Made by a program: the position numbers and the translations under genes
Shown here: in pieces, positions 41,651 to 43,885 of the stretch
Numbering within the stretch: the stretch's first letter is position 1
How the letters are laid out: every line of letters starts with the position of its first letter
Source: Pseudomonas helmanticensis
GTDB lineage: Bacteria > Pseudomonadota > Gammaproteobacteria > Pseudomonadales > Pseudomonadaceae
NCBI RefSeq assembly: GCF_900182985.1
Contig: NZ_FXUY01000002.1
Location: 560,501 to 624,500, forward strand
Direction of reading: 5' to 3'
Length of the DNA stretch: 64,000 bases
The notes under the pieces: generated by a model
Database searches by the model: none
The model's input: only the letters and a program-made list of their open reading frames with translations
What the model was told of the DNA's origin: nothing

Positions 41651-42634
41651 TCATCTTTGGCCAGGCAAACTCGCCCATTGCACCAACAACGCTTCCAGCA
41701 GCAACGCCGGATTGAGGTTGGCCTTGCTCATGACCTTCTGCCGCTGGGCGAGAATCCAGTCCTGAATGTCGAGGACTTTGCCCTGCGCGCTTTTCTGCGC
41801 CAGATACTGCACGACCTTGCGCATGTCGGTCAGACCCAGGCCTGCCTCGTCCTGAGTCAATTGATAACGCAGGATCAGGCTCGACCAGTCACAGAACCAA
41901 TCGAACAGGCGCAGCATTGGAATGCTTTTCCATTCTTCGGCCAATTGCGTCGGCGATTGCTGCTGCTTGAGCAGCTTTTTCACGCCTTCGACCACTTGCG
42001 CGCGCTGTTCGCGCACGCCTTGGGATTGCAGACTGACCGCCATCAATGGCGAACCGGCGGCCAGCGTCAGTAACTCGACACGCTCATCTGCGGAACACTC
42101 CGGCAGGGCCTGAGCCAGCCATTGCAGGCTCATCGCCTCACCCGGTAACGGACAGGCCTGTTGCACACAGCGGCTCTTGATCGTCGGCAACAAACGACTG
42201 GTCTGGTGACTGACCAGCAACAAAACGGTATTGCCAGAAGGCTCTTCAAGGCTTTTGAGCAAGGCGTTGGCGGCGTTGATGTTCATCGCCTCGACCGGCT
42301 CGATCAGCACCACTTTGCGCCCGCCTAGCTGCGCCGTCTGCACGACGAAACTGACCAGATCACGCACCTGATCGACCTTGATCGCCTTGTCGGCTTCTTC
42401 AGGTTCGAGGATGTAGTTATCCGGATGACTGCCGGCCCTGAGCAGCAGGCAGGATTTGCACTCGCCGCAGGCTTGCGGTGTCGGCCGCTGGCACAACAGG
42501 CTGGCCATCAGACGCTCGGCCAGCGCACGCTTGCCGATCCCGGCAGGGCCATGCAGCAAATAGGCGTGAGCGTGCTGTTTACGCCCGGCCAGTTGCTGCC
42601 AGAGACTGTCTTGCCACGGATAGGCCTCAGCCAC
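41651..42634 (-). CDS. holB: DNA polymerase III subunit delta'
   Basis: 327 residues. Clamp-loader AAA+ features are [19 protein letters not shown] (P-loop), zinc cysteines in [34 protein letters not shown] (Walker B and SRC region) and TIKSRCVQ. Start GTG at 42634 behind GGAG, overlapping the end of the tmk remnant by 8 bases. The gene is essential in bacteria studied. Because the upstream half of the tmk operon is separated by the island, its transcription must now come from within the island end. Confidence 0.93.
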
Positions 42635-42984
42635 GGGCCAGCTCCAGCAAGTTCGGCAACAAGGTATCCAGCGATTGTTGAACCTTGACCAACGGCTGAC
42701 CGGCGTCGATGCGCACATAGCGCGCGGGATCGGCTTCGGCGCGCTTGAGGAACGCATTGCGCACGGCTTCGAAAAACGCCCGGCCTTCCAGCTCGAAGCG
42801 ATCCAGACGGCCACGGGCACTGGCACGCGCCAGGCCGATTTCCACCGGCAGATCGAAAATCAGCGTCAGGTCAGGTCGCAGATCGCCCTGGACAAAGGTC
42901 TCCAGCGCCGCGATACGCTCCAGCGACAAACCGCGGCCACCGCCCTGATAGGCGTAAGTCGAATCTTGTTTCCGGTCTGAGAAA

Positions 42985-43030
42985 AATGTAAACCTAGACC
43001 TATTAGTTTCGTTTTGACTGGAATGTAAAC
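42985..43030. repeat. Direct repeats AATGTAAAC at the island end
   Basis: AATGTAAAC at 42985-42993 and 43022-43030, 37 bases apart start to start, within 65 bases of the tmk junction. Candidate recombinase-binding sites. Each also supplies TTTACA, a -35-like box, on the minus strand. Confidence 0.55.
43000..43029 (-). promoter_or_regulatory. Putative outward promoter into tmk remnant and holB
   Basis: Minus strand: TTTACA (43024-43029), 18-base spacer, TAATAG (43000-43005). It could drive holB-pilZ-tatD, which are cut off from the original tmk operon promoter. Confidence 0.45.
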
Positions 43031-43042
43031 GCATGAAAACCC

Positions 43043-43048
43043 TATAAT
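43043..43048 (+). promoter_or_regulatory. -10 box TATAAT of the dNMP kinase gene
   Basis: Perfect TATAAT 31 bases before the ATG at 43079. No good -35 at 16-18 bases; a TTGACT lies 23 bases upstream. A GAGG ribosome site precedes the start. Confidence 0.55.
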
Positions 43049-43078
43049 TTCCTTGTCATCAATCGTCCCGAGGCCTCA

Positions 43079-43885
43079 ATGAGGATCATCATCGGCTTGG
43101 CAGCTTTAGCCCGTTCCGGGAAAGACACCATCGCATCCATGCTACTCAAGCATGAGAACGTCTCAGCCTTCGCGTTGGCTGATCCGCTCAAAGCAGGATG
43201 CCAAGCTCTCTTCGGTCTGTCCGATGAGCAAGCTTGGGACGATGCCTTTAAAGAGATAGAGATTCCTCTCTGGCAGATGTCGCCTCGCCAAATGTTCCAG
43301 CAAGTCGGGACTGACTGGCTGCGAAATCATAACGCTAATCACTGGTTGATGCGCGCTGATCGCCATATCAATCAACCACCAATTTCTCCTCCCTCCCCCA
43401 CTGCCGATCAGCTCAAAAGCTCGGACGCCCCGATCCGCTTGGCAGCTCAGGCGTTCTTTGGTCTGACCGATGCTCAGACATGGGATGAGACCCTCGAGAG
43501 TGAGATTGACCCCTTTTGGGGGATGTTCCCCCTCCAAATTTTCGAATTGATCGAAAATCTTTGCGAAAAATATCTTCCTGCATATAGAGAGACGAGGTCA
43601 AAGTTGGACGTCGAAACTCTGAGCATGAATCATACTAAGAGCAAACTCACAGACATCATCATAATCAAGGACATACGCTTCGAGAACGAAGCGGAATATC
43701 TAAGGTCGCATAACGGCCGCATCTGGCACATCATTCGCCCGAACGCTGAGAAAGTTCAATCGCACTCTTCTGAATTTGGAATAAAAATCAAAGACGGCGA
43801 TCTCGTAATAAAAAACAGTGGTACACTTCAGGAATTGGAACAGCAAGTTCAAAGTGCGTGGAGCGAAATTTTGCCATCGCATTAA
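43079..43885 (+). CDS. Deoxynucleoside monophosphate kinase (phage T4 gp1 family)
   Basis: 268 residues. The P-loop GLAALARSGKDTIASML is the family form (ARSGKDT). LADPLKAGCQALFGL and SPRQMFQQVGTDWLRN form the substrate region. KDIRFENEAEYLRSHNGRIWHIIRP, HSSEFGI and the C-terminal IKNSGTLQELEQQV are hallmark motifs of dNMP kinases. The T4 enzyme phosphorylates dTMP, dGMP and 5-hydroxymethyl-dCMP. Residues 115-165 (IRLAAQAFFGLTDAQTWDET...MFPLQIFELIENL) look like a second, diverged copy of residues 35-82. First island gene beside the broken tmk, so a replacement for lost dTMP kinase activity is the natural reading. Confidence 0.88.
   Translation: MRIIIGLAALARSGKDTIASMLLKHENVSAFALADPLKAGCQALFGLSDEQAWDDAFKEIEIPLWQMSPRQMFQQVGTDWLRNHNANHWLMRADRHINQPPISPPSPTADQLKSSDAPIRLAAQAFFGLTDAQTWDETLESEIDPFWGMFPLQIFELIENLCEKYLPAYRETRSKLDVETLSMNHTKSKLTDIIIIKDIRFENEAEYLRSHNGRIWHIIRPNAEKVQSHSSEFGIKIKDGDLVIKNSGTLQELEQQVQSAWSEILPSH

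Follow-up and report, generated by a model that had tools for sequence, protein, structure and literature searches.

The gene for thymidylate kinase (tmk) in Pseudomonas helmanticensis is divided by a 123,469-bp island whose first gene encodes a deoxynucleoside monophosphate (dNMP) kinase of the phage type. In the reading that we favor, with a probability of roughly 93%, this site-specific island destroys tmk, and its dNMP kinase supplies the dTMP kinase activity and becomes essential; for the kinase studied here, that activity is predicted from sequence. Under this model, an island with a four-gene tyrosine-recombinase operon would enter tmk between codons 98 and 99 and thereby destroy the thymidylate kinase of the host, and the kinase encoded by the first island gene would provide dTMP kinase activity instead, so that the insertion would be viable and the kinase would become essential. 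The island would move in the manner of Tn554, SE, and GInt elements, by way of a circular intermediate and a 6-base staggered exchange, and later in evolution it may be lost, leaving the kinase at the position of tmk.

Replacement of tmk by an island kinase is already known, and the island described here is a further example. The first-pass annotation had held that no such element was described at tmk, which we correct: Wirth et al. (mBio 2023, PMC10653934), in the portions of the paper available, report a 65-kb island that splits tmk of P. putida KT2440 into 294 and 339 bp. According to the same portions, the island dNMP kinase PP_1964 is the sole and essential thymidylate kinase of KT2440, phosphorylates dTMP in vivo, and is encoded by a gene that could not be deleted, and E. 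coli tmk can stand in for the island. The tmk halves there are equal in length to those found here, and both islands hold the dNMP kinase inside, at one end; the two differ in size (65 kb vs about 123.5 kb here). The four conserved neighbors in KT2440, as given there, are a TetR-like protein, two tyrosine recombinases, and one unknown, and the four neighbors here (two PF00589 proteins, a 330-aa protein, and a 767-aa protein) fit that set by gene type rather than by direct sequence comparison. With the core idea already in print, the gain lies in mechanism and distribution. One insertion event can be enough to exchange an essential core enzyme for an unrelated one, and such exchanges have recurred at one and the same base; genomes apparently lacking tmk are explained by such islands; and the island ends link them to little-studied recombinase elements, offering a concrete way to test movement.

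The split tmk gene

The window, a stretch of 64,000 nucleotides (G000:C2:560501-624500), belongs to a 6.53-Mb genome of two contigs that is rated 100% complete, and its features are collected in Table 1. As had been described from the window alone, tmk is cut and only its 3' half, which lacks the P-loop, remains at the island edge. Comparison with 20 intact tmk genes of the genus placed the insertion exactly between codons 98 and 99, with no codon missing between the halves. The ORF containing the remnant matches positions 75-184 of the PF02223 profile, and its open frame extends through 23 element codons up to 43034, leaving 44 bases before the kinase ORF. The right end of the island and the 5' half of tmk, both of which the first-pass annotation had proposed to look for, were found on the same contig about 123.5 kb away, and the insertion covers C2:603466-726934. 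We asked whether this distal junction restores a full tmk frame and found that it does not; the 5' half runs into 24 element codons and a stop. The overlap of tmk with holB is also stated in the available portions of PMC10653934.

Table 1. Features of the tmk island, its flanks, and related kinase genes elsewhere in the genome (window positions unless a contig or locus is given)
Feature	Position	Strand	Remarks
holB (DNA polymerase III delta')	41651..42640	-	Intact; downstream of tmk, overlaps tmk
tmk 3' remnant	42627..42965	-	339 bp, codon 99 (D99) to stop; junction set from 20 intact tmk genes
Left terminus of island	42966..42993	+	One arm of an imperfect terminal inverted repeat of about 28 bp, ends in AATGTAAAC; partner arm at right end (L001, G000:C2, beyond the window), set off by six non-element bases
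Left-end region, tmk remnant to kinase	42966..43078		AATGTAAAC at 42985 and 43022; holB on one side, kinase on the other
Long dNMP kinase (T4 gp1 type), proposed Tmk replacement	43079..43885	+	268 aa, first island gene; PF21448, phrog_139
767-aa protein, probably a degenerate tyrosine recombinase	43938..46241	+	Lacks box-I arginine; R521, H543, Y553 invariant; boxes by eye
682-aa tyrosine recombinase	46234..48282	+	PF00589; R344, K372, H451, R454, H478, Y487 invariant (12 sequences; boxes by eye)
330-aa protein, conserved fourth core gene	48279..49271	+	Helix-turn-helix and coiled coil by eye
431-aa tyrosine recombinase	49271..50566	+	PF00589; R217, R344, H382, Y392 invariant (12 sequences; boxes by eye)
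tmk 5' half	G000:C2:726935-727228	-	294 bp, 98 codons up to DRFT
203-aa PF02223 paralogue	L003 1432-2040 (G000:C1:1140866-1141381)		About 27 bits (27-27.3), cut-off 27
Short prophage dNMP kinase	L121 6431-6997 (G000:C1, about 109.4-110.0 kb)		PF21448, 91.8 bits

The DNA changes character at 42966, with a G+C content of 0.47-0.54 in the island vs 0.55-0.61 in the flank. The break point is common to 10 right ends, our own included, and to 12 left ends (our own and those of 11 other genomes), two of which are less sure (the remnant in L009 comprises 19 residues, and in L018 codon 99 is changed and the break point extrapolated); since it is shared in this way, the split is not due to chance. It is also common to 15 left ends in a second comparison, several of them from the same genomes as before. 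In the seven genomes where both tmk halves share one contig, the islands range from about 13 to 123 kb. Most tmk remnants keep to the relation with HolB divergence that holds for intact genes; over 23 loci, several being one genome under two identifiers, the mean residual is -2.9. The residual is clearly low for L018/L070 (-22), L017/L071 (-8.5), and L019 and L080 (about -9.5 each), and is +12.6 for L072. Since most remnants are not clearly decayed, decay alone does not show loss of tmk function.

The long kinase and tmk across the genus

The first island gene had been taken for a phage-type dNMP kinase, and the PF21448 match of its product (83.3 bits vs a cut-off of 27.1) bears this out. T4 gp1 (1dek/1del) was its sole PDB sequence match at E ≤ 0.1 (E 1.2e-13), and 1dek was also the top fold match of its structural model (E 1e-9; mean pLDDT 86.2). 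The long kinase belongs to one family with T4 gp1 and the T5 dNMP kinase; it is 27 residues longer than T4 gp1, for which dTMP phosphorylation is stated in the available portions of PMC10653934. By eye, from sequence and model, it seems to contain an internal repeat of a helical region (residues about 34-98 and 117-173; window 43178-43600), which the short phage-type kinase described below seems to lack. The kinase frame is intact in 16 of 16 sequences, with 71 invariant columns that include the start methionine, and dN/dS is 0.11-0.21 for the 12 closest pairs, whose dS goes up to 1.058, and mostly 0.36-0.43 in more distant pairs, where dS (1.06-1.26) is near saturation. In a search of 5.8 billion proteins, 354 relatives passed E ≤ 1e-10; the listing covered the best 120 of them. 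Among 50,697 phage records, 1,058 match the kinase, all below 60% identity, and in 748 the match extends over 80% or more of the query. Relatives are therefore frequent in phages, with no phage carrier of the island shown by these matches; 72,556 plasmid records gave one partial match.

We searched a sample of 398 genus genomes, the window's own included, and found matches in 37: 16 hold the long type and 21 only a short type of about 190 aa, the phage type, with both types present in the window's genome. Six kinase genes of this genus are identical to loci of named Pseudomonas, in line with a Pseudomonas host. The long kinase adjoins holB in 16 of 16 genomes. Scoring of every PF02223 candidate in 36 genomes, these 16 and 20 controls, found an intact tmk in none of the long-kinase genomes vs all 20 controls (154-181 bits); the 16 genomes hold tmk halves, a distant paralogue, both, or nothing. 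In the window's genome, where an intact tmk elsewhere would have told against replacement, no intact canonical tmk was found, and PF02223 matches, apart from the tmk halves, only a divergent paralogue of 203 aa. These findings, together with the KT2440 experiments reported in the available portions of PMC10653934, uphold the earlier proposal of an element that interrupts an essential gene and persists through the non-homologous substitute it brings, and replacement of tmk by the long kinase is strongly supported by these genome comparisons. Loss or silencing of the element may be costly, as the first-pass annotation also proposed; in KT2440, deletion of the kinase gene did not succeed. In a class sample of 369 genomes, nine had a kinase match; the window's own alone comes close to full length as a single piece, and two of the others, which were followed (G656 and G648), have a full-length tmk.

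Across the whole genus sample, where eight PF02223 candidates per genome were scored and counts were read from the resulting table, the best match reached E ≤ 4.3e-40 in 377 of the other 382 genomes, and the five exceptions were followed up. In G139, tmk spans the two ends of a record; in G179, a contig break falls inside tmk, one piece of which has a stop; and G075 and G240, without a PF02223 match, are 87% and 77% complete. The fifth, G108, has lost nearly all of its canonical tmk and holds a different PF02223 protein of 233 aa, which possibly represents a second route to tmk replacement. In this complete genome, only the start and about the last 25 codons of tmk are left between mltG and holB (L116, G108:C1, about 1977302-1980826). 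The holB frame is broken as well, and sequence errors are possible. The 233-aa protein is encoded far off (L110 15720-16421), scores 88.5 bits over profile positions 1-102, and lies near a gene with thymidine-phosphorylase-like motifs, recognized by eye and without a Pfam match.

Two other proteins of the window's genome could contribute dTMP kinase activity, and we weighed each as its source. If the 203-aa paralogue supplied the activity, the island kinase would be mere cargo; the paralogue does span nearly the whole PF02223 profile and has a P-loop, but it barely reaches the cut-off (27.3 vs 27 bits) and scores 34.8 against the NCBIfam dTMP kinase model, where the cut-off is 83.25. At E ≤ 0.001, it is absent from 8 of the 16 long-kinase genomes, which have no PF02223 match beyond tmk halves or, in four cases, none at all, and it occurs beside an intact tmk in 9 of 20 controls (above the cut-off in 6 of the 9), so it cannot be a general substitute. 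Its presumed counterpart in KT2440, PP_3363, could be deleted without effect according to the available portions of PMC10653934, orthology to the protein at L003 being assumed, and we regard this source as very unlikely. We judge equally improbable that the activity comes from the short dNMP kinase encoded by a prophage at dusA, even though that protein matches PF21448 well (91.8 bits). A short-type match was reported in none of the other 15 long-kinase genomes, all 21 genomes matching with the short type only have a strong PF02223 match, and the prophage carries an integrase and an S24-type repressor, from which we infer that its kinase is probably silent. This prophage adjoins a Dus gene and also encodes a Prim-Pol protein.

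The split itself might instead be unreal or harmless. That an assembly artefact produced it is extremely improbable given that 10 right and 12 left ends share one base position and that the island has a lower G+C content. Reassembly of separately made Tmk halves into a working enzyme would be in keeping with the open frames that both halves retain in the window's genome; we nevertheless consider its likelihood negligible, as a tmk 3' remnant was looked for in vain in L005, L006, L007, and L010 and is down to 19 residues in L009, and the 5' half of tmk was deleted without effect in KT2440 (available portions of PMC10653934).

Recombinase operon and island ends

Four genes follow the kinase, and all four are present with their order kept at 10 of 21 named loci. 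The 767-aa protein, for which 11 sequences were aligned, has a weak phrog integrase match and no Pfam match; its model, with a mean pLDDT of 68.6, is poor, and although tyrosine recombinases fill the first 11 places among its fold matches, none is significant. Homologues of the 330-aa protein stand at the same place at 11 of the 21 loci, and its match of the TetR type is weak (FasR, E 0.028). Searches of the 72,556 plasmid records gave no match to the 330-aa protein and only partial matches to the 767-aa protein, at 25-27% identity in 10 records that name the matched proteins integrases, and no carrier of the island, plasmid or phage, was found in these records and the 50,697 phage records.

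Ten genomes have both ends, and in these the initial 28 bp of the left end align with the inward-read right end only if six bases are passed over. Identities amount to 174 of 280 at this offset vs 61-115 at the other 15 offsets, and none of 2,000 column permutations reached 174. The six foreign bases at the right end vary (gcgacg three times, seven others once each), could not be traced to a donor, and in none of the 10 right ends equal the tmk bases GAYNCN. Under the SE rule, the six bases copy the left flank of the donor; with 0 of 10 equal to GAYNCN, either the donors were located outside tmk or the SE rule fails. As far as our literature search went, terminal inverted repeats and six foreign bases at tmk islands are new: no paper joining tmk islands with the SE, Tn554, or GInt element classes was found in the literature searched, and the available text of PMC10653934 makes no mention of inverted repeat, direct repeat, GInt, or footprint.

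Elements of the SE class are characterized, in the available portions of PMC10214605, by a split target that is kept, imperfect inverted repeats, and a 6-bp spacer. Here, both target halves stand at the two ends, and the joined ends hold imperfect inverted repeats with a 6-bp spacer. SE elements and the island also have in common two catalytic and one degenerate tyrosine recombinase, a fourth protein with a helix-turn-helix and coiled coil near the left end, six foreign bases at the distal end, and site-specific insertion. On the other hand, the order at the SE left end is intA-tfp-intB-srap, whereas ours is kinase-767-682-330-431; the island is much longer; and its six bases differ from the tmk flank. 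GInts, which carry ginABCD in Pseudomonas and encode three integrase-like proteins and a smaller one, resemble the island in gene types, and a 6-nt staggered exchange has been modeled for them (PMC5385486, available portions). The same source holds that GInts probably do not completely inactivate their targets, whereas here an essential gene is destroyed. Since the core order differs from that of SEs and the proteins were set beside SE and Gin proteins by gene type, not by sequence, we describe the island as SE/Tn554/GInt-like and not as a member of these classes.

The left ends may also act on the neighboring gene. A promoter-like site facing the tmk 3' remnant and holB, 33-36 bp from the junction, scores 10-11 of 12 in 6 of 15 left ends (L067, L069, L073, L077, L079, and L082), values reached by at most 5 of 200 shuffles. 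The other nine score 7-9 in this direction, the window's own scoring 8 (reached by 91 of 200 shuffles, with the sequence one base short), and a separate promoter search found none; toward the kinase, a score of 10 was reached in 2 of 15 left ends. An outward promoter is therefore only suggested by these scores, and such a site could keep the essential holB expressed.

It is possible, at somewhat short of even odds, that the islands form a Tn554/SE-like family specialized to destroy one essential gene at one base, moving without restoring their target. The kinase, often together with a promoter facing holB, would then be core rather than cargo, and insertion would act as a one-way ratchet in which islands disappear later without a return of tmk, with several replacements of an essential enzyme by an unrelated one in one genus.

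Island history and stand-alone kinases

The kinases differ far more than their hosts do. HolB of the window shares 92.6% identity with its counterpart in P. vancouverensis (L068) and 89.6% with that in Pseudomonas sp. PD9R (L074), whereas the kinases are 54.0% and 48.3% identical, respectively, from which it follows that the tmk islands probably arrived separately in the compared hosts. Some kinases occur alone between mltG and holB, as is also described in the available portions of PMC10653934. When kinases were labelled as "stand-alone at the tmk place" on an unrooted tree of 31 sequences, the label had to change five times, and well-supported branches force at least four of these changes; five end branches of the tree, including that of the window, are long.

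Stand-alone here means without recombinases, although other DNA may be present: in L122, L124, and L083, the kinase and mltG are six to eight kb apart. At the 12 stand-alone loci examined, no core-gene homologue was found at E ≤ 0.01, and matches at E ≤ 10 were short and chance-like; among these loci, L065 is a 4.3-kb contig and L066 has no mltG within 10 kb. A trace of the island left end was not found in L064 and L125. Inspection by eye revealed that L124 and L083 keep the full island left end followed by tmk from codon 99, and that L122, L123, and L063 keep a recognizable island left end without tmk. Whether stand-alone kinases are derived or ancestral is left open in the available portions of PMC10653934; judging from the left ends they have kept, the kinases of these two groups (L124/L083 and L122/L123/L063) are derived from islands.
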